From the NCBI GenBank assembly GCA_016868895.1, contig VGFK01000002.1:62001-126000 (forward strand): a DNA stretch of 64,000 bases, read 5' to 3'. Position 1 is the first letter of the stretch, and every line of letters starts with the position of its first letter. Both the position numbers and the translations under genes were made by a program. Shown here in pieces: positions 10,759-26,140 of the stretch. The notes under the pieces were generated by a model, which was given only the letters and a program-made list of their open reading frames with translations, did not search any database and had not been told where the DNA came from. The DNA comes from Bacteroidota bacterium. Lineage in GTDB: Bacteria > Bacteroidota > Bacteroidia > Chitinophagales > Chitinophagaceae.

Positions 10759-12813
10759 ATGCAATTGGTAGCAACTGGGTTTAATGTTTGTAAATGGCAC
10801 TTCATACTGTTGCTGGCAGTGTTCGTATGGGGTCAGGTTGAGGTTCAAGCTCAGCGGCGAGGCGGGTTGCCAGGAGGCATGCAAAATCTGGGATCGCGGT
10901 TCAGCAGCTCAGGATCGGGGGGAGGTTCAGATTCGCTTTCCTTTGAAAAAAGAAATTTTTCTGACGATTCTGTGAGTGTACGGTTCAAGTATTTAGATAC
11001 GCCTCGGTATCGATTTTTTGATTCCAGTATCTCAGATTTTTATGCCCGTATTCCGTTAAAGCCGGAGTATACCCACATTGGACACAATGGTAATGCGGTT
11101 CGCCCCCTCTTGTTCAATCCGTTGCGTTTGCCGGGTTGGGATATGGGATTTCATGCACTTGATCCCTATGCCTTCACCATTGAGGATACGCGGTTCATGA
11201 ATACCACTAAACCGTTTACGGAACTTGGTTATCTGGTAGGAAGTAAGGCCGAACAGCAGATTTCCGTTGTGCACACACAAAATATTTCTGCGGATTGGAA
11301 TTTTGCATTTCAGTACCGACTGATCAATGCGCCCGGTACATTCAATTCGCAGAATACTAACCACAACAATGTTCGCTTCAATTCGGATTTTACTTCAAAA
11401 AATCAGCGTTATCATGCGTATGTTATTTTGTTGTCCAATGCGTTGCAGTCGTCAGAGAATGGCGGCATAGTGGACGAGTCGTATTTGGTGAATGAAAATC
11501 CTGCGTATACGGATCGTTTCAATATTCCGACGCAGTTGGCCACTACCACGTTTTCAACTCGAAATTTTTTCAATGTTAAGTTGTCGACAGGAAACCGGTA
11601 CGTGGACAAACACACAGTATTTCGTCAGCAATACGATTTTGGCCGCAAAGACTCCATTGTCACCGACAGTTCAGTCGTTCGCTATTTTCTTCCCAAGCTG
11701 CGTATAGAAAATACGGTGCAGTTGAGCAGTTACCGTTACCAGTACCTGGATGTTTTAGCTTCCGGTTCCCCGGATTTTTACACAAAAAATTACGGGTACA
11801 CTACCGTACCCGATACAGTTCGGTTTGCTGCTGAAATGGGCATGACCAAAATCGATGCATCCATCATACAATTTCCCGATTCTAAAAATCCGCTTCAGTT
11901 CTTAAAAGTGGGTGCCTCTCTGTTGCGTTTTTCACCCCGGTATACGAACCAGGAACAATTCAATAATCTGGTCGTGCACGGCGAATACCGTAACCGGACA
12001 CGCAATAGGAAATGGGACATGATCCTGTTCGGAGAATTTTATGCTGCAGGTCGGGATCTGGGCAATTACCGCGCCATGGCAAAAATGGAGCGTGTATTGG
12101 GCAATTTTGGGAATCTGGAATTAGGAGCAGAAAACATCAATCGTTCCCCTTCTGATATCGTTGGAAGAATTCCTGGATTCGCTTTTCCTGTCCTGCAGTC
12201 AGCTGATTTTGGAAACGAAAATGTAACCATGCTCAGTGCTTCGCTTTCACTCCGAAAATGGAGGGCCCGTTTAAGTGTTCAGCAGTACCTGGTTTCCAAC
12301 TATACCTATTTCAGCGGGTTCAGGCAGGCAGATCAATATGCGCCGTTATTCAGTTTTTCAAGGGTGGGTTTAAACCGACAGACCCGTTTGGGAAGAACCT
12401 GGAAATGGTACCTGGATCTCTATGTGCAGTCGACTACCGGCAATGCACCGTTGAACTTGCCCCTGCTCTTCACCCGCAACCGCATTGCCTACGAAGGGAA
12501 ACCGTTCCGCAACCTCGTACTTTCAACCGGATTGGATATCCGCTATTTTAGTCCCTATAAAGCCGATGGATACTCTCCTTTGTTGGGACAGTTCTTTTTT
12601 CAGGACGAGCGGACGCTTTCCATCCGCCCGGATGTGGCAGCCTATACCAACTTCAGGATCAGAAGCTTCAACGCCTATGTGCGCATTGAAAACCTGAATA
12701 CACTGACCACGCAGTATGGCGTTGGGTTTAAGCAGAACAACCTGGCTGCCAGTTTTTATCCTAATCCCGGACTGGTGTTTCGGCTTGGCATCTTTTGGAG
12801 TTTTGTCAATTAG
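10759..12813 (+). CDS. Putative porin, Bacteroidota outer-membrane barrel family
   Basis: A 684-residue outer-membrane protein with an N-terminal signal peptide ending near VEVQAQRR, a Gly/Ser-rich stretch (about 35-60, RGGLPGGMQNLG and SSSGSGGGSDSL), then a long series of alternating amphipathic strands rich in aromatic residues and Asn. It ends in LVFRLGIFWSFVN, a C-terminal strand of barrel type. The segment FNPLRLPGWDMGFHALD followed by RYRLINAPGTFNSQNTN resembles the Bacteroidota 'putative porin' family (PF14121-like). Its cargo is unknown. It lies 18 nt downstream of punA, which would fit nucleoside uptake, but that link is only inferred from proximity. Confidence 0.8.
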   Translation: MQLVATGFNVCKWHFILLLAVFVWGQVEVQAQRRGGLPGGMQNLGSRFSSSGSGGGSDSLSFEKRNFSDDSVSVRFKYLDTPRYRFFDSSISDFYARIPLKPEYTHIGHNGNAVRPLLFNPLRLPGWDMGFHALDPYAFTIEDTRFMNTTKPFTELGYLVGSKAEQQISVVHTQNISADWNFAFQYRLINAPGTFNSQNTNHNNVRFNSDFTSKNQRYHAYVILLSNALQSSENGGIVDESYLVNENPAYTDRFNIPTQLATTTFSTRNFFNVKLSTGNRYVDKHTVFRQQYDFGRKDSIVTDSSVVRYFLPKLRIENTVQLSSYRYQYLDVLASGSPDFYTKNYGYTTVPDTVRFAAEMGMTKIDASIIQFPDSKNPLQFLKVGASLLRFSPRYTNQEQFNNLVVHGEYRNRTRNRKWDMILFGEFYAAGRDLGNYRAMAKMERVLGNFGNLELGAENINRSPSDIVGRIPGFAFPVLQSADFGNENVTMLSASLSLRKWRARLSVQQYLVSNYTYFSGFRQADQYAPLFSFSRVGLNRQTRLGRTWKWYLDLYVQSTTGNAPLNLPLLFTRNRIAYEGKPFRNLVLSTGLDIRYFSPYKADGYSPLLGQFFFQDERTLSIRPDVAAYTNFRIRSFNAYVRIENLNTLTTQYGVGFKQNNLAASFYPNPGLVFRLGIFWSFVN

Positions 12814-12878: not shown

Positions 12879-13247
12879 GTGAAAAAGGTATTCATCGTAT
12901 TGCTTTTGTTGGTCCACACCCTCGCCAGCAGCGGGGTAGTGCTCAGTACGCATTACTGCATGGGTGATTTTGCCGGTATCAGCATAGGCGCAACAGAAGA
13001 AGATGGGTGTGGAACCTGCGGCATGAAGGGTAGTGATTGTTGCCATGATGCAGTTGCCATTCTCAAAGTTGATCATACCGACATTCAGCAAGTAAGGGGA
13101 ATTGAGTTTTTCTACGCATCAACAGTCCCGCAGGTGTTCATCCCCATTGTTCCGGTCCATTTCACTGACCTCCCTCTCTGTCCGTTGCATCTCGGAGGCG
13201 TGTCCTCTCCTCCGATCTATTTGGTGAATCGGAATTTCAGAATTTGA
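12879..13247 (+). CDS. HYC_CC_PP-type small secreted protein, probable metal-related
   Basis: A 122-residue protein with a signal peptide (MKKVFIVLLLLVHTLASSG) and a Cys/His-rich mature part: THYCMGD, then CGTCG and CCHD within about 40 residues, the pattern behind the family name. Such proteins often sit next to copper or heavy-metal efflux genes in Bacteroidota, as here; a role in periplasmic metal handling is inferred, not shown. The C-terminal part has several prolines and another Cys-His (CPLHLGG). The start is GTG at 12879, with a TAATTTTA box (one mismatch from consensus) 4 nt upstream. It begins the heavy-metal locus. Confidence 0.75.
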   Translation: MKKVFIVLLLLVHTLASSGVVLSTHYCMGDFAGISIGATEEDGCGTCGMKGSDCCHDAVAILKVDHTDIQQVRGIEFFYASTVPQVFIPIVPVHFTDLPLCPLHLGGVSSPPIYLVNRNFRI

Positions 13248-13328
13248 GTTGACCCTTGTCTCTACTTGCGTGCTAGCATTTGCGGCACATTCATTGTATT
13301 TATTTGTTCATCCTAAAATCATCGTAAA

Positions 13329-13670
13329 ATGAAAATCATTACATCAACATTGGTTGTATTATTCATGTCATTGTCAGTGTTCGCTCAAAAGAAAGAGGAT
13401 ATAAAAGTCTGGGGGAATTGCGGCATGTGCAAGAAAGTAATTGAAGAGGCCACTTTAAAGGCTGGTGCTAAAAAGGCTGCGTGGAATGAAGAGACCAAAG
13501 TATTGACCGTAGAATACAGCCAGCGCAAGACGGATATGGCCAAAATTCAGCAGTCGATAGCTGCTTCCGGTTACGATACGCAGGATTTCACTGCTCCAGA
13601 TGAAGTATACAGCAAATTGCATGGGTGCTGCCAGTACGAGCGAAAGGCAAAAAGTGGTATAAAAAAATAA
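13329..13670 (+). CDS. Secreted heavy-metal-associated (HMA) domain protein
   Basis: A 113-residue periplasmic metal-binding protein. It has a signal peptide (MKIITSTLVVLFMSLSVFAQ) followed by one HMA fold with the metal loop NCGMCKK (CxxC), the central WNEETKVLTVEY strand and IAASGYDTQDF near the end. The C-terminus adds another Cys pair (GCCQYE). HMA domains usually bind Cu(I) or other soft metals through the CxxC. The gene is 81 nt after the HYC_CC_PP gene and 24 nt before a second HMA gene, so it is likely a shuttle feeding the downstream CusA-type pump. Confidence 0.88.
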   Translation: MKIITSTLVVLFMSLSVFAQKKEDIKVWGNCGMCKKVIEEATLKAGAKKAAWNEETKVLTVEYSQRKTDMAKIQQSIAASGYDTQDFTAPDEVYSKLHGCCQYERKAKSGIKK

Positions 13671-13694
13671 CTCGACACGGTTAAACAATAGAGT

Positions 13695-14243
13695 ATGAAA
13701 CATTTAGTTACGGCGATTGTCTTCATGACAATCGCCGCACTAGGACACGCCCAGATCAGGAGTGCGTCCTTACAGGCCAGCGGATTGACCTGCGCCTTGT
13801 GTGCAAAATCAATATACACCAATCTCACTGCGTTGCCCTTTGTAGATAAGGTCGATACGGACCTCAATGCTTCAACCTTTGAAATTTCATTTAAAGAAGG
13901 AAGGCATGTTGACCCGGAAGCGTTGAGAAAAAAAGTTGAAGATGCCGGGTTTTCGGTTTCTCAACTTCATTTGCATTATCAGGCCAGTAACCAAATGATT
14001 GGTCACGATACCCACATAAAAGTGGGAGAAAACTTTTATCATGTGGTCAATGCAAAACCCAAGACATATTCTGGTGTGGTGACCCTTCATGTGATTGATA
14101 AAGAGTTTTTGACGTTGAAAGACCATAAGAAGATCGTGGGTGGCTCCAATCTGGATTGCTATAAGCCAGGCAGCAACTTAAAATGCGTGGTTCCCAATCA
14201 TGAAGTGCATGAGTTGAATCTATTTCATGTAACAATCAAGTGA
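13695..14243 (+). CDS. Secreted HMA-domain protein with C-terminal extension
   Basis: A 182-residue protein with a signal peptide (MKHLVTAIVFMTIAALGHAQ). The HMA domain (about 22-90) has the CxxC loop GLTCALCAKSI and the motif VEDAGFSV. The remaining 90 residues hold His-rich LHLHYQ and GHDTHIKVG and a beta-rich stretch ending in HEVHELNLFHVTIK; this half was not recognised and could add metal ligands. The stop overlaps the next start as GTGA (14240-14243), so it is translationally coupled to the barrel protein. Confidence 0.85.
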   Translation: MKHLVTAIVFMTIAALGHAQIRSASLQASGLTCALCAKSIYTNLTALPFVDKVDTDLNASTFEISFKEGRHVDPEALRKKVEDAGFSVSQLHLHYQASNQMIGHDTHIKVGENFYHVVNAKPKTYSGVVTLHVIDKEFLTLKDHKKIVGGSNLDCYKPGSNLKCVVPNHEVHELNLFHVTIK

Positions 14244-15131: not shown

Positions 15132-18100
15132 ATGCTGAATCGGATCATTCATTTTTCGGTCAAGAACAAGTTCATCGTCCTTTTGTGTATCATTGGCTGG
15201 GTGGTCTGGGGTGCAGTGGAATTGCTTCGTCTTCCCATGGACGCACTTCCTGACATCACCTCCAATCAGGTTCAGGTCATCACTGTATCCCCTACATTAG
15301 GTGCCATGGAAGTGGAGCGCCTGATCACATTTCCGATCGAACAAGCCAGTTCCAATATTCCCGGAATTACGGAAATCCGTTCCATTTCCCGTTTTGGACT
15401 TTCTGTAGTCACCCTAGTTTTTCAGGATGATCGCGATGTGTATAGGTGTCGGCAGCAAGTGGCGGAACGCATGAGTGCCATTCGGTCTGAAATCCCTCCA
15501 GAAGCCGGTTCTCCGGAATTGGCTCCTGTTACCACTGGGCTGGGGGAGATCTATCAGTATGTTGTAAAGCCCAAAAAGGGGTATGAGGACCGGTACAATT
15601 TGACAGAGCTTCGAACCATTCAGGATTGGATCATTCGTCGCCAACTCCTCGGAACTCCTGGTGTGGCGGATGTGAGCAGTTTTGGAGGAAAACTCAAGCA
15701 GTATGAGGTGGCCATTGAGCCTGGCCGAATCCAATCCCTCGGTATATCCTTGGATCAGGTCTATGAAGCCCTTCAAAAGAATAACCAGAATTCCGGCGCA
15801 GCGTATATTGAAAAGGGACCCTCTTTACTCTTTATCAGATCGGAGGGAATGGCGCGTTCAATTGAAGAAATCGGAAACATACGGGTTGCAGCGGCTGCTT
15901 CCGGTACACCCATCTTGATTCGGGATATTGCTGAAGTGCGCATTGGAAGTCCCATTCGGTATGGGGCACTCACATACCAAGATCAGGGTGAAGTTTCCGG
16001 TGCGGTTGTGCTGATGTTAAAAGGCGCGAATGCTTCTGAGGTCGTCAAGGGGATTGAGCTTCGTATGCGTCAAATTGAGAAGTCGTTACCGGAAGGGGTT
16101 GAAATAAAAACATTCCTGGATCGCAGGAAAATGGTGACGCGGACGCTGAATACCGTAAAGACCAATTTACTCGAAGGTGCGCTTATTGTTTTATTTGTCC
16201 TGATCATTTTCCTGGGGAATTTCCGTGCCGGGTTGATTGTTGCGTCGGTGATTCCACTTGCGATGCTTTTTGCAGTAGGCATGATGAATGTATTTGGGGT
16301 TTCTGGGAACCTGATGAGTTTGGGGGCATTGGATTTCGGACTGATCGTTGACGGTGCGGTAATCATCGTTGAGGCAGTGCTGTGTCAGTTGCATATTCGA
16401 AAACCGGGACAGGCAGGGTTGAGTCAGCAGGAAATGGACGACACCGTCATCGAATCTTCTGGTCGGATGATGAATGCTGCTGTTTTTGGTCAGTTCATCA
16501 TCCTGGTCGTATACATACCCATTTTATCGTTATCGGGCATTGAAGGAAAAATGTTTCAACCCATGGCCCAGACAGTCATATTTGCATTAATAGGAGCTTT
16601 TTTGTTATCGGTGACCTATGTTCCAATGATTTCCAGTTGGGTCATTCCCAAAAAGAGCCAGCAACATTTTTGGTTTTCGGAACGATTAATGGAAGCAATA
16701 CAATCGGGCTTTCAGCGCCTATTGAAACGGTTGTTGTTGCACCCCGGAAAAGTCATCTTTATTGCCGCTGGATTTTTAGTGTTTTCTCTGTTCATAGCTG
16801 CTCGTTTAGGTGGGGAGTTTATTCCTGAATTGGAAGAAGGTGATTTTGCGGTTGATGCGCGACTCATGACGGGAAGTTCGCTTCAGGAAACGATCAATGC
16901 CACACAAGAAGCTGTGCATGAACTCAAGAAGTTTCCTGAGGTTACGAGTATCGTAACCCGCATTGGTGCAAGTGAAATCCCCACAGATCCTATGCCCATT
17001 GAGATGACCGACATCATCATCAATCTCAAAGAGAAAGGATTGTGGACCAGTGCCACCAGTTATGAAGAACTGGCAAATAAGATGAGTGAGGCCATTGCAA
17101 AGGTGCCTAGATTGTCTGCAGGATTTCAATATCCGGTTCAAATGCGTTTCAATGAATTAATAGCTGGTTCCAAGCAAGATGTGGTTTGTAAATTATTTGG
17201 TGAGAACATCGACACACTGGCAAAGTATGCCTCCATTATCGAGAAGTTAATTGTACAGGTTGAAGGGGCAAAGGATGTATTTGCAGAGCGCGTAACTGGG
17301 TTGCCTCAGGTTGTCATCCGGTTAAAAAAAGATGCATTAGCAGCATATGGCTTTGATGTTGAACAGGTCAATCGTACGATTCGGACAGCTTTTGCCGGTG
17401 AAGTAGCTGGTAAGGTCTACGAAAACGAGCGGAAGTTTGATCTGGTTGTTCGGTTTAAAAAATCCAGTCGAGATGAATTGACTGATTTATCAACCTTAAT
17501 ATTGAGTACTCCATCTGGAAAGCAAGTCCCGTTGGCCCAGGTTGCCGATGTGATCATTGAAGAGGGGCCCAATCAAATTCAGCGGGAAGATGCCAAGCGC
17601 AGGATTACGGTTGGCTTCAACGTTCGTGATCGAGACGTGCAATCGGTTGTAGAAGACGTTCGGAAACGCATCGATCGTTCCGTCAGCTTACCGGCCGGGT
17701 ACTATGTGCAGTTTGGTGGACAGTTTGAGAATTTAACTGAAGCCAAAAATCGATTGATGATTGCTGTTCCTGTCGCATTGCTGTTGATTTTTTTGATTTT
17801 GTATTTTTCTTTTGGTTCTGTAAAATATGGATTGTTGATTTATACGGCTATACCATTATCCGCTATCGGTGGAATTTTATTGTTGTGGCTTAGGGATATG
17901 CCCTTTAGCATATCAGCAGGAATTGGATTCATCGCCCTGTTTGGAGTTTCCGTGTTAAACGGGATTGTCCTGATCAGCGAATTCATACGGTTGGAAAAAC
18001 AAGGCAATAAAGATGTATGGACGATTGTATTAGAGGGATCAGTAACCCGGTTGCGTCCCGTTCTAATGACCGCTGCCGTTGCCTCACTGGGATTCTTGCC

Positions 18101-19487
18101 AATGGCCCTCAGCGATAGTTCCGGTGCTGAAGTGCAGCGACCTTTGGCCACAGTCGTTATTGGTGGATTGATTTCAGCAACATTGCTCACCCTTATTGTG
18201 CTTCCAATGTTATATGTTTGGGTAAGCAAGATGAAGCGAATGCCCCCTCGTGTTGGACTTTCTGCTCTGGTGTTGATCTGTGCGCCTTTTCTAACTAAGG
18301 CGCAGAGCACAACCTATGTTCCACTGTCTGTCGATTCAATTGTTGCGTACACTGAAAAAAATGCAGCTATCGTTCAGGTGGCAAGGCGAAAAATTTTAGC
18401 CAGTGAAGCGGCGGTCAAGCAGTACAGGGAAGTTTCACCCACTTCTGTTTTGATCGAATACGGGAAAATAAACAGCCTGTTCAACGACTCTAAATTTTCC
18501 TTTTCCCAGCCTCTTCAGTTGCCAGTAGTATACAGGCGACAAGAAGCTGCACAAGCTGCAGGTTTGCGAGTTGAACGTGCACAACAATCCGCCAACCTGG
18601 CCGATTATAAACTAGACATTCGAAAGACCTGTTATCAAATCATGGATCTTCAGCGTCGTTTCATGATTCTGCAAGAAATGGAAACGTTATTCAAAGAGTG
18701 GGAAAGGATAACGCAGGTGCAGCTGAAAGAAGGGGAGACCGCTCGTTCTGTTGCACAAGCCATCCGGCTTCAATCTGCGGATATGACACTTCAAAAGGAA
18801 CAGCTAGAAAACGATCGAATAGCACTAATCAATGATTTGCGTCAATCCACTAATTCGGAAGAACTTTTTTATCCTGTACTTACCAATGCATTTATTTCCA
18901 TTCAAACGACTCCTGACTTTTCTTTATCGCGGCATCCTCAGATTACTACCTCGTTGGAAAATATAGCAGCACGGAAAATGGATGTTGGGCTTGCCAAGTC
19001 GCGTTTGTCGCCGGAGTTCTCTTTTGGCTATCAAAGCCAAACTATCATCGGTTGGCAGTCGCCCGACGGAGAGAACATCAAGTACTTTGGAGCCGGCAAG
19101 CGGTTTGGTGTGGTAGAGTTCGGTCTGAATTTCCCTATATTTTCCAATACGCTCAAGGCTAAGATAAAATCGGCGGATTTGGAGCAACAAATCGCTGAAA
19201 TACAGCATGAGCAACTGGTCAGTACGTTTGATAATTATTATGTAAATGTCATCATCCGCTATATCCAGGCCAAAAAAGCCATTGATTATTATGAACGGGA
19301 TGGGCTAAAAACAGCCGATGATCTTTTTCGGCAAGCGGGTATTCGGCTAAAGGCTGGGGATATCAGTTATGCAGAGTGGATGTTATTGGTATCGCAATCC
19401 CTCCAGATAAAATTATCCTATGCTTCTGCCGTTCTTCAAATGCAATTGATCACAGCCGATTATCAGTATCTACAGGAAAAACAATGA
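15132..19487 (+). CDS. CusA/CzcA-type heavy-metal RND pump fused to a TolC-like outer-membrane channel
   Basis: A 1451-residue fusion. Residues 1 to about 1040 form an RND exporter of the heavy-metal subclass, which uses the proton gradient to expel Cu, Ag, Zn, Co or Cd. The TM4 signature DFGLIVDGAVIIVE (401-414) carries both aspartates and the glutamate of the proton relay at nearly the CzcA positions, and two periplasmic halves are visible. After the last TM helices comes a new hydrophobic segment (VGLSALVLICAPFLTKAQ) that looks like a retained signal peptide, cleavable after A1057. Residues 1060-1451 are a TolC-like channel with long coiled-coil helices. The fusion is known in Bacteroidota and is not an assembly fault. 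The stop overlaps the adaptor start as ATGA. Confidence 0.93.
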   Translation: MLNRIIHFSVKNKFIVLLCIIGWVVWGAVELLRLPMDALPDITSNQVQVITVSPTLGAMEVERLITFPIEQASSNIPGITEIRSISRFGLSVVTLVFQDDRDVYRCRQQVAERMSAIRSEIPPEAGSPELAPVTTGLGEIYQYVVKPKKGYEDRYNLTELRTIQDWIIRRQLLGTPGVADVSSFGGKLKQYEVAIEPGRIQSLGISLDQVYEALQKNNQNSGAAYIEKGPSLLFIRSEGMARSIEEIGNIRVAAAASGTPILIRDIAEVRIGSPIRYGALTYQDQGEVSGAVVLMLKGANASEVVKGIELRMRQIEKSLPEGVEIKTFLDRRKMVTRTLNTVKTNLLEGALIVLFVLIIFLGNFRAGLIVASVIPLAMLFAVGMMNVFGVSGNLMSLGALDFGLIVDGAVIIVEAVLCQLHIRKPGQAGLSQQEMDDTVIESSGRMMNAAVFGQFIILVVYIPILSLSGIEGKMFQPMAQTVIFALIGAFLLSVTYVPMISSWVIPKKSQQHFWFSERLMEAIQSGFQRLLKRLLLHPGKVIFIAAGFLVFSLFIAARLGGEFIPELEEGDFAVDARLMTGSSLQETINATQEAVHELKKFPEVTSIVTRIGASEIPTDPMPIEMTDIIINLKEKGLWTSATSYEELANKMSEAIAKVPRLSAGFQYPVQMRFNELIAGSKQDVVCKLFGENIDTLAKYASIIEKLIVQVEGAKDVFAERVTGLPQVVIRLKKDALAAYGFDVEQVNRTIRTAFAGEVAGKVYENERKFDLVVRFKKSSRDELTDLSTLILSTPSGKQVPLAQVADVIIEEGPNQIQREDAKRRITVGFNVRDRDVQSVVEDVRKRIDRSVSLPAGYYVQFGGQFENLTEAKNRLMIAVPVALLLIFLILYFSFGSVKYGLLIYTAIPLSAIGGILLLWLRDMPFSISAGIGFIALFGVSVLNGIVLISEFIRLEKQGNKDVWTIVLEGSVTRLRPVLMTAAVASLGFLPMALSDSSGAEVQRPLATVVIGGLISATLLTLIVLPMLYVWVSKMKRMPPRVGLSALVLICAPFLTKAQSTTYVPLSVDSIVAYTEKNAAIVQVARRKILASEAAVKQYREVSPTSVLIEYGKINSLFNDSKFSFSQPLQLPVVYRRQEAAQAAGLRVERAQQSANLADYKLDIRKTCYQIMDLQRRFMILQEMETLFKEWERITQVQLKEGETARSVAQAIRLQSADMTLQKEQLENDRIALINDLRQSTNSEELFYPVLTNAFISIQTTPDFSLSRHPQITTSLENIAARKMDVGLAKSRLSPEFSFGYQSQTIIGWQSPDGENIKYFGAGKRFGVVEFGLNFPIFSNTLKAKIKSADLEQQIAEIQHEQLVSTFDNYYVNVIIRYIQAKKAIDYYERDGLKTADDLFRQAGIRLKAGDISYAEWMLLVSQSLQIKLSYASAVLQMQLITADYQYLQEKQ

Positions 19488-20632: not shown

Positions 20633-21829
20633 TTACTGCTCAAAGTAAGCCACGCTGCCGCCTACCCAGATTTTGTCTTTGTTGTAGCGAACTCCTATCA
20701 TTTTGCCCTTGCTCAGCCGTGCAAGATTATTGACTAGAATGGGGCGTTGCTCATGGTCTGGCCACAGGTACAACAATCGGATTTCTACTTTTGCAGGGCC
20801 ATCCGGAGTTTCAACGCAGTCGGCATAGCTAACTTTTTTTTGCAGTATCCAATGCTCTTTGTCCTCAATTCGTTCAACGTCTTCTACAGTTGGATCAATG
20901 ATCACCCCTTGTCCCGCAAATGAAAACAACGGCTTGAGCACATAGGATCCAAGATCTTTTGGCCATTCCTTGAACGTATTCAAAAATTCGGTTTTGGGAA
21001 TATTTTCGTCCTCTAAAAACGGCATCGTATACTTGGAAATTCTGTAAAACCAATGTGGGTGAGGCGCCCATTCCACCTGATACGGTTCGTTGAGGTTGAT
21101 GATGGGTCCTAATTCATGTTGCACTGCATTGAGTTCATCCCATATGATTCGGTTATAGATTCGTTTGATCACTTGTTCTCTCCCATCCCGTAGATAATAG
21201 AGTTGATTTTCCTTTGTAAAGACTTCTGTAATGCAGACGGGTCGAACACCTGTATAGGTTTCAGTAGCGTAAAAATCCACCCGAGTTTTTTGTTGATGTG
21301 GACGAATCTCAAGCAACACGACCTCTTCGGGTTGGTGATTTCCCAAAATGGTTTTTTTCAGCAGCTCTATGCACGTGCTTTTGGTGTATCCGTTGAAAAA
21401 ATGGTCGAACCCAGTTGGAATGGTAAAATGCTGTTCCAGGATTTCAGGGTAGAAAAGTTGTAAGCCATAAAGGGAAGGAAATCCCTGCATTTCGATCAGT
21501 GCGGGAAAAAGGCTCCCATCTTCGTGTCTGCAAATACCGTAATCAAAAACCAAAAATTGCGGATGGTCATTTTCTCCGGGAAGGAATTGATTCGAGGGTA
21601 TTGCCGGATCAGTTATGGACCTGAATTGATTGGAGCAGATCACATCTATGATGCGTTCACTGGTCCCAATCATGGCGTTTTTTAGTTGACGGTCGATGAA
21701 TACTGGTGTCTCTGCAACCCGAAAGTCAATTGCTCCTGGATAGCAGGCGTCAAGATCGTTCAAGAAGTTTGAATATGCCTCCTCGGTAAAACGATCGTTG
21801 AATGTTTTTCGAATAGATGGGATCATCAA
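20633..21829 (-). CDS. ATP-grasp-like protein of the amidoligase cluster, function unknown
   Basis: A 398-residue cytoplasmic protein whose last 110 residues look like the nucleotide half of an ATP-grasp enzyme: LKPLFSFAGQG (298-308) with K299 as the likely ATP lysine, hinge ILQKK (328-332), KVEIRLLYLW (347-356) and NNLARLSKG (367-375), giving the E and N positions that bind metal. The first 250 residues were not recognised; they contain FDYGICRHEDGS and EMQGFPSLYGLQLF. If active it would join a carboxylate to an amine through an acyl-phosphate. Its start overlaps the amidotransferase stop by 4 nt, so the two are coupled. It is last in the four-gene minus-strand unit. A catalytically dead relative is possible. 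Confidence 0.65.
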   Translation of the reverse strand: MMIPSIRKTFNDRFTEEAYSNFLNDLDACYPGAIDFRVAETPVFIDRQLKNAMIGTSERIIDVICSNQFRSITDPAIPSNQFLPGENDHPQFLVFDYGICRHEDGSLFPALIEMQGFPSLYGLQLFYPEILEQHFTIPTGFDHFFNGYTKSTCIELLKKTILGNHQPEEVVLLEIRPHQQKTRVDFYATETYTGVRPVCITEVFTKENQLYYLRDGREQVIKRIYNRIIWDELNAVQHELGPIINLNEPYQVEWAPHPHWFYRISKYTMPFLEDENIPKTEFLNTFKEWPKDLGSYVLKPLFSFAGQGVIIDPTVEDVERIEDKEHWILQKKVSYADCVETPDGPAKVEIRLLYLWPDHEQRPILVNNLARLSKGKMIGVRYNKDKIWVGGSVAYFEQ

Positions 21830-22671
21830 TTCAGGGTATTTGCGGATGGGGTGTCCAACGCTTCAATGGCTTGTGCGATGAAATTGGGTAAAATGACTTT
21901 GCTGGTGAGTTCGATTTTGTCCGGATCATTCAGGTGCTCCAGCATGGAGGCCCATTTGTTGAACCCGTGATTTTCGATCACCGTATTTTTTTTATCTTCT
22001 CGCTGCAGGTACATGCTCATGCCTTGTGCATCCGCTTCCGGATGGAATTGTGTGCCGACCATGTAAGGGTTAAACCGGATGGCCATTACAGCTCTTTCCA
22101 GAGGAACGTGGGGTCGTTCCTTTTCAATACAAAGGATTTCTCCACCTGCTTCCTGTATCTTTTTTTTATTGGTTTGTACCACCTGGAAGTCGCGACTGTC
22201 CACTCCATAAAATGGATCATTGAGTCCAGCGAAAATGGGATCAGTATTGGATAAAGCATGCAGCATGTGAATGGGAAATACACCAAATGCTGTCGATTTT
22301 CTTCGAATCACCTCTCCAATTTGAAAATAGCGACAGGCCATTTGAAAAGAGTGGCAAATAAAGAAAATGAATTTCTTTCGGGTGTTGAGCGGTTCATTGT
22401 TCCACTGATCAACTAGTGCAATCCATTTGAAATATGCATTTTCCCATTCGGTTCCCTTGCTTTCCAGGGGGCTACCTGGTCCGCCCGACGAAATGAAAAT
22501 ATCATGATCTACCGTAGGGATCTGCACGCTTTTTCGAACCTCAAATTCTTGTATGCTGATTCGATTGGGATAATGATTCTGTTGTGCTGCCAGAATAGAC
22601 CGAATGCAACGCATTCCTTCATTGGGCATGCCATCGTTCATGTCTAAAATCGCTATGCTGATCTTGCCCAT
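21826..22671 (-). CDS. Class I glutamine amidotransferase domain protein
   Basis: A 281-residue protein with the class I glutaminase fold. The triad is present: nucleophile C106 in FICHSFQ, and H210 and E212 in GTQFHPEAD. The usual GxCxGxQ elbow has lost both glycines, which is odd for a standard glutaminase and may mean a different amide substrate, or hydrolysis of a gamma-glutamyl bond. An oxyanion-type loop SSGGPGSP (61-68) is present. There is no synthetase domain in the same chain, so an ammonia acceptor enzyme, if any, must be one of the neighbouring ligases. It follows the GCS2-type ligase by 17 nt and overlaps the next gene by 4 nt. Confidence 0.85.
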   Translation of the reverse strand: MGKISIAILDMNDGMPNEGMRCIRSILAAQQNHYPNRISIQEFEVRKSVQIPTVDHDIFISSGGPGSPLESKGTEWENAYFKWIALVDQWNNEPLNTRKKFIFFICHSFQMACRYFQIGEVIRRKSTAFGVFPIHMLHALSNTDPIFAGLNDPFYGVDSRDFQVVQTNKKKIQEAGGEILCIEKERPHVPLERAVMAIRFNPYMVGTQFHPEADAQGMSMYLQREDKKNTVIENHGFNKWASMLEHLNDPDKIELTSKVILPNFIAQAIEALDTPSANTLN

Positions 22672-22688
22672 TTGTCAGCAAAATTACA

Positions 22689-23795
22689 TTAAAGCGGGGC
22701 AAGAAACATGGATTCTATATAGGCAGCGACGGATTTAAAGTCGCCTTTCTCATGATGCACCTGAAGCTGCCGATCCGCGCCGGTTCCGACCTCCAAGAGT
22801 TTGTGTATCGTTTTCAGGGCATCTCTGCATCCAAGATCATCCACAACATCGTCTACAAAATCCAGTAGTTCCAGAATGAGTGCACGGGTATTCACTTCCT
22901 GTTCTTTTCCAAAATCAATCAACTTGTCGTCAATGCCATAGCGTGAAGCCCTCCATTTGTTTTCGTTCACCAGTGCGCGCGGATAAATGATGAAGTTGAG
23001 ATTGGAGGCGCGAAGTTGGAATAATTTTACGCAGATGCATTGAAATAAAGCCGCAAATGCAACGCTTTCATCAACGGTCATGGGAACATCACAGATCCTG
23101 AATTCTACCGTTCCGTAAAACGGATGAACCCGAAGGTCCCACCATATTTTTTTTGCATTATCGATGCAATTTGTCTTGATCAGTAGATTGACATAGTTCT
23201 CATATGCGCTGTAGCTATCAAAATAGTCGGGGATTCCGGTCCGGGGAAACTTATCGAATACTTTTGTCCGGTAAGATTTGAATCCGGTGATCCTGCTTTC
23301 CCAAAAGGGAGAGTTGGTGCTCAGCGCGAATACATGCGGAAGAAAATAGCGGGCGGAATTGGCAATGTGAATAGCCATTTCTTTTGATGGCATGCCGACG
23401 TGCACATGTAGTCCAAAGATGAGGTTGGAACGAGCAGCATCCTGCATTTCGTTTACGATTTGCTGATACCGCACATGATCGGTGATGAGTTGTTGACGCC
23501 ACGTACTGAATGGGTGAGTTCCTGCAGCTCCGGTGCTGTATCCCAGCGAAACAGCAATATCCCGTATGGTTTTTCGGAGATGGAAAATATCGTCACGTGC
23601 CTCATCAATCGTGGCGCAGACGTCGGTGCCGACTTCCACGACAGCCTGATGCATTTCAGCTTTCACCTTTTCGCTGATGACTTTCTGGCCCTCTGCGACA
23701 ATTTTTTGCTCATGGCTGACCAATTCTTTACTGACCGGGTCCAGTACCATGTATTCTTCTTCGATGCCGACCGTAAAAATTTTATGATTGATCAT
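22689..23795 (-). CDS. GCS2-family carboxylate-amine ligase (YbdK-like)
   Basis: A 368-residue member of the glutamate-cysteine ligase 2 family, a glutamine-synthetase-like fold that forms amide bonds between a carboxylate (often glutamate) and an amine using ATP. Recognisable segments are TVGIEEEYMVLDP (metal glutamates), EVGTDVCATIDEAR, GLHVHVGMPS, RTGIPDYFDSY, WWDLRVHPFYGTVEFRICD and ENKWRASRYG. Length and motif order agree with YbdK/EgtA-like enzymes. YbdK has only weak glutamate-cysteine ligase activity in vitro, so the true substrate is open. It is the second gene of the cluster, 8 nt after the RimK-like ligase gene. Confidence 0.9.
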   Translation of the reverse strand: MINHKIFTVGIEEEYMVLDPVSKELVSHEQKIVAEGQKVISEKVKAEMHQAVVEVGTDVCATIDEARDDIFHLRKTIRDIAVSLGYSTGAAGTHPFSTWRQQLITDHVRYQQIVNEMQDAARSNLIFGLHVHVGMPSKEMAIHIANSARYFLPHVFALSTNSPFWESRITGFKSYRTKVFDKFPRTGIPDYFDSYSAYENYVNLLIKTNCIDNAKKIWWDLRVHPFYGTVEFRICDVPMTVDESVAFAALFQCICVKLFQLRASNLNFIIYPRALVNENKWRASRYGIDDKLIDFGKEQEVNTRALILELLDFVDDVVDDLGCRDALKTIHKLLEVGTGADRQLQVHHEKGDFKSVAAYIESMFLAPL

Positions 23796-23803
23796 GGCTC
23801 CAT

Positions 23804-24763
23804 TCAGGTTTTCAACGATTGTTGCTTGACGCTTTTCTTGATGTATTCCCCCCAGGATAAATTATCCGTTGTAGGATTAGCATGTTGTGCAATTTCAATT
23901 GCGTACGTGGCAGCTGTTTCTACTACCCATTCAAAATTTTCCTGTCCTACACTTTTTACATCCGCGTCCGGGGCCGGATTACAAAAATCAATCGCATAAG
24001 GGATTCCATCGCGCACGGCCAGTTCAACCGTATTGAAATCATAGCCCAGGTATTGATTGATTTTGAGAACAATCTCTTCCATGGTGCTCAGCAATTCTTT
24101 ACTGGGACGATGATCGGTCACATACCGAAGATGATGCGGATTACGGGGCTCATACGGCATGATGCGAACATGTTTTCTTCCAATGCAGTAACAGCGGTAG
24201 TATTCTTCAAATATGATTTCTTCTTGAAGCAGCATAACCAGTTGCCCGGTTTCAGCATGGCGCTCAAAGAATTCTTCCATGGAGTTCAATTTGTACACAT
24301 GCTTCCAGCCTCCACCTGCGAATGGTTTCATGTACGCAGGAAACCCGACATACTCGAATATTCCGTTCCAATCCAACGGATACGCCAGATTCGAAAACGA
24401 TTCTGACGATGTATCATCCGGTAATTCGCGGGATGGGAGGATGACGGTTTTGGGTACGGGCACACCGATTTTGGTGGCCAGTGCATTGTTGAAAAACTTT
24501 TCATCGGCGCTCCACCAAAATGGATTGTTGATGACTGCGGTCCCGCTGATGGCAGCATTTTTTAGAAAAGCGCGATAGAAGGGAACATCCTGAGAAATTC
24601 TGTCAATGATGACCGTGTATCCAGATGGTTCTCCTTGCGCGACTTTATCAATTTTAACGACCTCTGCTACAATGCCTTTTATTTTTTTATCATTGATGCG
24701 CTGAATAAATGCCTCTGGGAAGGACCGCTCTTTTCCAAACAGGATACCAATCTTTTTTGTCAT
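23804..24763 (-). CDS. ATP-grasp ligase (RimK-like), first gene of the amidoligase cluster
   Basis: A 319-residue ATP-grasp protein. Landmarks are an N-terminal Rossmann-like strand (KKIGILFGKERSFPEAF), the ATP lysine in AYMKPFAGGGWK (K146), the hinge LLQEEI (178-183) and the metal site VELAVRDGIPYAIDFCNPAPDAD with E247, D259 and N262. The Gly-rich lid GGGWKHVYKL is unusual in containing an aromatic residue. Enzymes of this group add amino acids or other amines to carboxylates; no specificity motif was recognised. The ATG at 24763 faces the divergent esterase gene; no exact -7 box was found for it. Confidence 0.85.
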   Translation of the reverse strand: MTKKIGILFGKERSFPEAFIQRINDKKIKGIVAEVVKIDKVAQGEPSGYTVIIDRISQDVPFYRAFLKNAAISGTAVINNPFWWSADEKFFNNALATKIGVPVPKTVILPSRELPDDTSSESFSNLAYPLDWNGIFEYVGFPAYMKPFAGGGWKHVYKLNSMEEFFERHAETGQLVMLLQEEIIFEEYYRCYCIGRKHVRIMPYEPRNPHHLRYVTDHRPSKELLSTMEEIVLKINQYLGYDFNTVELAVRDGIPYAIDFCNPAPDADVKSVGQENFEWVVETAATYAIEIAQHANPTTDNLSWGEYIKKSVKQQSLKT

Positions 24764-24833
24764 GGTTAAGTTGTTATCCCCAAATTATGAAAATTGGGAG
24801 AATTCTCTTCTCTCTTGGGCGGGTTGAATGCAT

Positions 24834-24841
24834 TATTTTTG
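24834..24841 (+). promoter_or_regulatory. -7 box placed for a near-leaderless esterase transcript
   Basis: TATTTTTG, then TCTGC, then the ATG at 24847. A TTG lies 16 nt upstream of the box, slightly closer than the canonical 19. The spacing supports this ATG as the start of the esterase gene. Confidence 0.5.
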
Positions 24842-24846
24842 TCTGC

Positions 24847-25674
24847 ATGTTCAGGCCCCAGCGTTTGCGTACTGCTTTTGAAACGCATCAAGTTCTATCG
24901 GTGCACCTCCAGCGAACGGTCCGGGTAGACCTCTACGTTCCAGTTAGGATGGAGCAGTTGGGACACATTGATCTGTTATTCATCAATGATGGACAAGACT
25001 TGCTGAAAATGGATTTTGATTCGCTGTATGTTGCTGTATCCACGAAACATCCACTGGTGGTTGTGGCACTGCATGCTGGATCCGAACGAAGAAGTGAATA
25101 CGGCGTGGCGGGTCGGCCCGATTATATGAACCGTGGCGACAAAGCCAAAGCATACCAACAGTTTGTTATCGAAGAAGTTTTTTTACTGCTGCATCGTGTT
25201 CTTCCGGGCAGAACCATTGGTCATCGTTGGTTGGCTGGATTTTCACTTGGTGGACTCAGCGCATTTGATTTGCTCATGGATGAACCTGAACTGTTTGATG
25301 CAGTAGGCGTCTTCAGCGGGTCCTTTTGGTGGAGATCCAAACCCCTGGAGGATGGATATGACGAGGAGCGCGACCGCATCATGCATGCAAAAATCCGAAG
25401 CAAACGTTTGCATGCTCATGTCCGGTTCTTTCTGGAAGCGGGACAATTGGATGAACAAGCGGACCGTAATAAAAATGGTATCATCGATTCAATCGACGAT
25501 ACCATGGGGATTATATATGAATTAGAGCGACTGGGATACAGTCGCTCTACTCAAATTTTCTATATTGAACTGGAAGACGGCGCACACGATATTGCAACAT
25601 GGGCCCGTGTCATGCCTCAGTTCATTCAATGGCTTATTTCACCGAAAATGGAACCTGCAGGTTCTCCCATTTGA
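24847..25674 (+). CDS. Alpha/beta-hydrolase of the esterase D / Fes family, in the amidoligase locus
   Basis: A 275-residue hydrolase without a signal peptide, so cytoplasmic. It has a YVP-type strand (VRVDLYVP), LLFINDGQDLL, the nucleophile S133 in AGFSLGGLSAF, and a C-terminal DGAHDIATWARVMPQFIQWL with the catalytic histidine. Relatives cleave esters of siderophores or acyl groups. An EF-hand-like calcium loop (DRNKNGIIDSIDD, D206 to D217) sits between the core and the histidine. The start at 24847 fits the homologous region and the -7 box; an upstream ATG at 24787 adds a hydrophobic stretch with no family match. It is divergent from the ligase genes and its 3' end overlaps the convergent DUF2911 gene by 41 nt. 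Confidence 0.82.
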   Translation: MFRPQRLRTAFETHQVLSVHLQRTVRVDLYVPVRMEQLGHIDLLFINDGQDLLKMDFDSLYVAVSTKHPLVVVALHAGSERRSEYGVAGRPDYMNRGDKAKAYQQFVIEEVFLLLHRVLPGRTIGHRWLAGFSLGGLSAFDLLMDEPELFDAVGVFSGSFWWRSKPLEDGYDEERDRIMHAKIRSKRLHAHVRFFLEAGQLDEQADRNKNGIIDSIDDTMGIIYELERLGYSRSTQIFYIELEDGAHDIATWARVMPQFIQWLISPKMEPAGSPI

Positions 25675-26140
25675 TGGTGACGCCGTTTGATCCAATTTCA
25701 TAGAGCAGTGCTTCATTGAACGATGATGATGCGGATGATTTAACTTTTACCCTCAGCACATCCTCTTCCTGCTTGTACGAATAGGCTCCCCATTGCTTGG
25801 GATTTTTATTGAAGATGATGGTCCATTCTTTTTCGTCTGGAATGGTAAACAATGCGTATTTGCCTTTAGGAAGCGACTGGCCTTCAATTTTTACATCGGC
25901 ATCAAATTCGATGGTAGTCGCCTCATTTGCTCCTGCCCTCCATACTTTTCCATAGGGCACCAGTTCTCCCCAGATTTTTCTTCCCTTCACAGAGGGTGAA
26001 CCGTAGTTAACAGTTACTGTCGTGGATCCAACTTTTCCAGTAGCGGTTTGAGCGGGACTGGGTTTTGAATTTTGTGCACAGGCAGTGAAGCCAAAATGGA
26101 CCAGCATGAGCGCGGTCAAGATGAATGAAATCCTTTTCAT
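25634..26140 (-). CDS. Secreted DUF2911-family protein
   Basis: A 168-residue exported protein with an N-terminal signal (MKRISFILTALMLVHFGFTACAQ); the cysteine in FTAC could make it a lipoprotein. The mature part shows the DUF2911 hallmarks: TVNYGSPSVKGRKIWGELVPYGKVWRAG..., then PKGKYALFTIPDEKEWTIIFNK and WGAYSY. No biochemical function is established for the family. It is the last gene of an ahcY-pdxJ-DUF2911 unit, 13 nt after pdxJ, and its last 41 nt overlap the end of the esterase gene on the other strand. Confidence 0.88.
   Translation of the reverse strand: MKRISFILTALMLVHFGFTACAQNSKPSPAQTATGKVGSTTVTVNYGSPSVKGRKIWGELVPYGKVWRAGANEATTIEFDADVKIEGQSLPKGKYALFTIPDEKEWTIIFNKNPKQWGAYSYKQEEDVLRVKVKSSASSSFNEALLYEIGSNGVTIKWENLQVPFSVK

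Follow-up and report, generated by a model that had tools for sequence, protein, structure and literature searches.

A conserved Bacteroidota operon of three ligases and an amide hydrolase: a candidate pathway for a small gamma-glutamyl-type (pseudo)peptide

The window analysed here, a stretch of 64,000 nucleotides from a Bacteroidota bacterium (assembly GCA_016868895.1, contig VGFK01000002.1, positions 62,001 to 126,000), carries a minus-strand array of four genes, RIM, GCS, GAT and X, with a divergent esterase gene, EST, beside it. The three ligases encoded by RIM, GCS and X are inherited together in many families of the phylum, even where their genes lie scattered, and X has the complete fold of glutathione synthetases together with altered signature residues. 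We give roughly even odds (a probability of about 0.5) to the reading that the array is a chromosomal operon whose enzymes make and break down a small gamma-glutamyl-type (pseudo)peptide in the cytoplasm. The five genes are, in window coordinates and with protein lengths in amino acids (aa):

RIM, 23804 to 24763, minus strand: RimK/LysX-like ATP-grasp ligase of 319 aa, first gene of the operon (TIGR00768 1e-5, LysX 2.4e-5).
GCS, 22689 to 23795, minus strand: YbdK-type (GCS2, PF04107) carboxylate-amine ligase of 368 aa, a predicted gamma-glutamyl ligase (PF04107 1.2e-57, PRK13515 6.7e-154).
GAT, 21826 to 22671, minus strand: predicted amide hydrolase of 281 aa with the class I glutamine amidotransferase (GATase) fold, elbow FICHSFQ and triad C106-H210-E212 (PF00117 2.6e-6).
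X, 20633 to 21826, or from 21829 (398 aa), minus strand: predicted ligase of the glutathione synthetase (GSS)/GspS fold, assigned by fold model and outside the Pfam and NCBIfam models.
EST, 24847 (ATG) to 25674, plus strand: divergent cytoplasmic PF00756 (Fes-type) esterase with a GFSLGG nucleophile motif (PF00756 about 4e-20 to 5e-20).

The open reading frame (ORF) coordinates bear out the initial annotation of this DNA in its gene set, in its spacings of 8, 17 and -4 nt and in its divergent esterase, which starts 83 nt away from RIM. Its family calls also hold against Pfam and NCBIfam, with RIM weakly RimK-like, GCS strongly YbdK-type, GAT weakly a class I GATase and EST a PF00756 member. 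For X, comparison of homologues makes the ATG at 21826 a more likely start than the TTG at 21829, since the methionine at codon 2 (21826) is invariant in 29 of 29 homologues and the TTG is not conserved among them; the overlap with the GAT stop would then be 1 nt (TGATG). Scans for promoters and terminators returned no more sites than in shuffled sequence. The host genome, a 1.75 Mb assembly that is 95.8% complete, contains GCS as its one GCS2 gene.

No Pfam or NCBIfam model matches X at E<=1. Its AlphaFold2 model, built from a 56-sequence alignment, has a predicted local distance difference test score (pLDDT) of 92.9 and a predicted template modelling score (pTM) of 0.92, and we compared it with solved structures by Foldseek and VIA-align. 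The match to YjfC runs the full length of the protein (Z 25.4, root-mean-square deviation 3.6, 345 residues aligned), as do those to YgiC (Z 25.3), soybean homoglutathione synthetase (3kal, 24.4), E. coli glutathionylspermidine synthetase (24.3), human GSS (2hgs, 23.5) and 1m0w (23.4); the alignments to GSP_synth, YgiC and YjfC cover 340-345 residues. Other ATP-grasp enzymes (LysX, RimK, GshB) score at most 8.3 and align only with the C-terminal portion, beginning near residue 165. The initial annotation had described an N-terminal half of about 250 residues as unrecognised, and these comparisons place it within a complete GSS/GspS-type fold, so that a new fold for this half was rejected.

By sequence, X matches YgiC weakly in a PDB profile search (E 0.05), and hhalign aligns it with the GSP_synth family (PF03738) at E 2e-4 and a probability of 46%. 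The hhalign register lays D96, E113, Q115, K266 and K299 of X onto GSP_synth motifs, and these five residues, together with R227 and R371, are invariant in 119 X sequences. Read in that register, the GSP_synth signatures RFD...LExN and KP..xREG fail in X: RFD becomes xFD, with A at position 94 in 76 sequences, V in 21, Q in 11, other residues in the remainder and R in 0 of 119, while ExQ replaces ExN and FAG, FSG or YAG replaces REG (119/119). The RFD, ExN and REG residues of the known GSP_synth family face the substrate and the metal. X therefore keeps the catalytic frame, and the residues that have changed are those that face substrate and metal in the known family. With GSP_synth it thus shares the fold, motifs that align and the highest VIA scores, but neither a profile match nor the signatures. 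With eukaryotic-type glutathione and homoglutathione synthetases, ATP-dependent peptide ligases by fold, it shares the overall full-length architecture, but the PDB search gave no significant GSS sequence match and no Pfam or NCBIfam family links the two. The model predicts that X acts like a GSS/GspS-type ligase, yet by sequence it lies outside GSP_synth. PF03738 itself has no match in the host genome and is present in 8 of 149 genomes of the class.

The same residues bear on the possibility that X is a peptide-spermidine ligase, for which GCS and RIM would make the peptide part. YgiC and YjfC, reported as enzymes of this kind (cited in PMC12568646), are the best VIA matches of X, and hhalign connects X with their family; however, every X sequence has lost the arginine of RFD and the residues of REG, and the amino-acid-adding homoglutathione synthetase (tied) and human GSS stand within about 2 of the best Z. 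We regard a peptide-polyamine conjugate as an unlikely product. A further parallel is Cp1B of the fungal E-64 pathway, which shares the fold (9cjn, Z 22.2) and is a stand-alone ATP-grasp ligase that builds a small pseudopeptide together with another ligase (PMC12568646). Cp1B differs in having an oxygenase and an amide bond synthetase as partners, and it had no sequence match to X in the PDB search.

Two further genes recur near X. One, directly downstream in about 20-22 loci, encodes a small cupin of about 105 aa (for example at L101, positions 11207-11521), and the other, beside or near X in 14 loci (L061, L063, L064, L093 and L137 among them), both in distant lineages and in Chitinophagaceae, encodes an Amidohydro_3 (YtcJ-like) protein.

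Conservation was surveyed in a sample of 395 genomes from across the phylum Bacteroidota, with locus counts taken from 39 wide and 80 named loci. X is present in 114 genomes (a weak fragment match in G094, which would be the 115th, is left out), RIM in 127 and GCS in 117 (strong matches only for these two), and GAT in 86. X and RIM occur together in 110 genomes, X and GCS in 109, and RIM and GCS in 113, and 84 of the 86 genomes with GAT also have RIM. All three ligases occur together in 105 genomes and all four genes in 64; X occurs without RIM in 4 genomes and without GCS in 5. The common order in linked loci is RIM-GCS-GAT-X, the same in different classes; RIM has GCS as its immediate neighbour in 36 of the 39 loci holding RIM, and GAT directly adjoins X in 62 of the 80 named and 14 of the 39 wide loci. 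Among relatives with names found by the X profile, most are Chitinophagaceae and the others are labelled Sphingobacteriales or Bacteroidetes. The initial annotation had proposed a check for co-occurrence beyond close relatives and would have been given up had there been none; with three ligases together across the phylum and their order kept across classes, that outcome did not arise.

Fisher p-values for the co-occurrence are tiny, a statistic that ignores shared ancestry. A stronger argument for joint inheritance comes from several families (f43, f45, f48, f49) in which the ligase genes are dispersed and still co-occur in the genome; in G102, for example, one contig (C1) carries RIM at about 484 kb, GCS at about 744 kb and X at about 1229 kb. 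Pairwise-distance matrices of X, GCS and RIM correlate at 0.79-0.86 (37 loci) and those of GAT and X at 0.89 (31 loci), values that are as expected for joint inheritance. X and GAT on the one hand and RIM and GCS on the other are frequently split as two blocks, as would suit genes that merely sit together and serve separate pathways, but even then one genome holds both blocks, and we consider that explanation highly improbable. To judge from order and co-occurrence kept across many families of the phylum, the array is more than a chance arrangement. A tblastn search with X and RIM against 72,556 plasmids matched nothing, and plasmid carriage was rejected.

GAT scores 27.6 bits against PF00117 (cut-off 22.8) and has the class I GATase fold (AlphaFold2 model, pLDDT 90.5) with an intact Cys-His-Glu triad; C106, S108, Q110, H210 and E212 are all invariant in the homologue alignment. 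Its elbow reads [FL][IV]C[HY]S[FY]Q in 81 of 81 homologues scanned, which departs from the canonical GxCxGx[QE]. It was called an atypical amidotransferase in the initial annotation, and for the FICHSFQ elbow this is right, but it is not atypical in the sense of degenerate: the elbow is fixed in the clade, the triad is intact, and we rejected a degenerate amidotransferase. The best Foldseek match is Arabidopsis gamma-glutamyl peptidase 1 (GGP1, E 1.1e-11), which ties by VIA (Z 21.9) with MetA and TM1158. GGP1 and GAT are 14-15% identical, and GAT differs in its elbow and in a C-terminal helical extension of about 60 residues.

In four loci (L071, L077, L078, L079) one protein family fills the slot of GAT, its member in L077 matching the M29 aminopeptidase model PF02073, and GAT is missing from all four genomes with this M29-type protein (G114, G152, G314, G330). 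In family f37, GAT is present and unlinked from the remaining genes. Because a peptidase replaces it and because it can stand apart, GAT, as modelled, is probably an independent amide hydrolase and not an ammonia donor. Were it instead a glutaminase subunit supplying ammonia to one of the ligases, the product would carry a primary amide, and the amidotransferase fold and intact triad would suit that role; the M29 exchange and the separate location in f37 speak against it, as do the lack of any amidotransferase-type synthetase subunit and the presence of stand-alone hydrolases among the nearest structures, and we hold it to be very unlikely.

The remaining two ligases differ in how firmly their families can be named. 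GCS exceeds the curated cut-offs of both PRK13515 (512 bits against 371) and TIGR02050 (295 against 176) and is a YbdK-type GCS2 enzyme; its closest solved structure is E. coli YbdK (1r8g, 6e-47), from which it differs in belonging to the PRK13515 branch and in sharing an operon with two other ligases. RIM reaches 25 bits against TIGR00768, where the curated cut-off is 143, and on its sequence is only weakly called RimK-like, outside the RimK family proper; a 20-sequence alignment of RIM has numerous invariant residues. RIM-like proteins of 33-38% identity occur in G067, G146, G346, G416, G428 and G448, in which X, GAT and a strong GCS were not found, and these divergent proteins may form a paralogous ATP-grasp family that serves a different role. 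RIM homologues in L079, L081, L083 and L086 bear long Lys/Ala-rich, histone-H1-like C-terminal tails that the window protein does not have.

Such tails, which could bind a macromolecule, raise the question of protein tagging, in which RIM and X would attach amino acids or peptides to the terminus or a side chain of a protein, with GCS making the tag and GAT or the M29 peptidase taking it off again. RimK-type enzymes can tail proteins, and the pairing of ligase and hydrolase genes fits reversible tagging. Against this, the tail is missing from the window protein and most homologues, X is matched by VIA to ligases of small molecules (GSS, YgiC and Cp1B), and among ORFs of at least 80 aa, the size range covered, the conserved set holds no small peptide or carrier. 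Tagging seems to us improbable.

EST is the least conserved member, found in 6 of the 39 wide and 18 of the 80 named loci, mainly Chitinophagaceae-like with a few others, and it lies divergent beside RIM where mapped. Ten wide loci (L076, L078, L080-L083, L085, L086, L088, L089) encode, upstream of RIM, a member of a different esterase family of about 240 aa, with GCSFGG in most members; this esterase could be linked to the pathway more widely than EST. None of the five proteins matched a defence family in the PADLOC models, and an anti-phage defence system was rejected. On the opposite strand, a DUF2911 gene (25634-26140, minus) overlaps the 3' end of EST (25634-25674). Elsewhere in the window, a 1451-aa ORF (15132-19487, plus) resembles an RND (CusA-type) pump that continues in frame into a region like a TolC outer-membrane factor, and ORFs of similar size occupy the matching place in the related loci L097, L098, L101 and L104.

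We infer that the enzymes serve one pathway acting on one molecule, that this molecule is small and of gamma-glutamyl nature, and that the steps follow the order given here. GCS would spend ATP to couple an amine to the side-chain carboxylate of glutamate or a similar acid. RIM and X, ATP-grasp ligases of different fold classes, would activate further carboxylates as acyl phosphates and then extend the compound by one or two amino acids or amines. GAT, as a Cys-His-Glu hydrolase of gamma-glutamyl-peptidase type, would cut the amide for recycling or quality control, and EST would free an intermediate or conjugate of an ester or thioester group. The initial annotation had remarked that neither a transporter nor a carrier protein is nearby; among ORFs of at least 80 aa, the conserved set likewise includes neither, which suggests a small molecule that stays in the cytoplasm.

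A GCS2 ligase, a eukaryotic-type glutathione synthetase fold and a gamma-glutamyl peptidase fold are together the set of plant glutathione metabolism, and PF00756 includes S-formylglutathione hydrolases, so that the genes might make an alternative, glutathione-like low-molecular-weight thiol, with EST as an S-acyl-thiol hydrolase. But 66 of the 67 genomes tested encode BshC, of bacillithiol (BSH) synthesis, whether or not they carry the cluster, as does the host genome, and there is consequently no thiol gap to fill; surveys likewise assign BSH or N-Me-BSH to Bacteroidetes (PMC6282198), and X is without the signature residues of the related GSP family. A thiol pathway is quite unlikely, and a role for the cluster in replacing bacillithiol or substituting for glutathione was disfavoured.

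Several observations weigh against a gamma-glutamyl-type (pseudo)peptide as the product. None of the five proteins has a known substrate, and, by analogy, the GSS fold of X would suit polyamine or acid acceptors equally with amino acids. In family f19 the genomes keep RIM-GAT-X and are missing GCS, so the gamma-glutamyl step is not universal. RIM and GAT occur without X in 16 of the 395 genomes, and in four X-less loci (L181, L183, L184, L185) proteins of about 450-480 aa, homologous to one another, lie beside GAT in the X slot; those of L181 and L183 match CP_ATPgrasp_2 (PF14403), and hhalign gives a probability of 4% for a sequence relation between this protein and X. Like the Fisher tests, the distance correlations take no account of shared ancestry. 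As a side observation, in L181 the set of RIM, CP_ATPgrasp_2, GAT and esterase is followed by an ATP-grasp_4 protein and an opposite-strand Asparaginase_2 gene (11636-12811 and 12889-13875).

A pathway that builds and recycles a small compound, peptide-like or gamma-glutamyl, as first proposed in the initial annotation, nonetheless remains the best reading of the candidate product in view of the co-inherited ligases and their folds. That annotation is largely right about the kind of system, and the two points to correct in it are the fold of X and the nature of GAT. The annotation's statement that no product is known for this combination agrees with our literature searches, which found no paper on this gene set or its product, the 2009 amidoligase survey lying beyond their reach. 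That survey of amidoligase gene neighbourhoods, by Iyer et al., reportedly predicted that clusters of ligases and peptidases make small peptides.

The cluster is real and deeply conserved, and as a biosynthetic unit it is apparently uncharacterised. A more specific proposal, that its three ligases, each from another fold class, assemble an undescribed gamma-glutamyl (pseudo)peptide widespread in Bacteroidota and that X defines a new family of GSS-fold enzymes, is one we put forward tentatively and with some doubt. Co-inheritance of ligases of three folds in many families, even when scattered, speaks for a genuine metabolite, or a compound resembling a cofactor, that escapes standard annotation in one of the most abundant bacterial phyla, and characterising X would explain a gene that about three in ten of the sampled genomes of that phylum carry.

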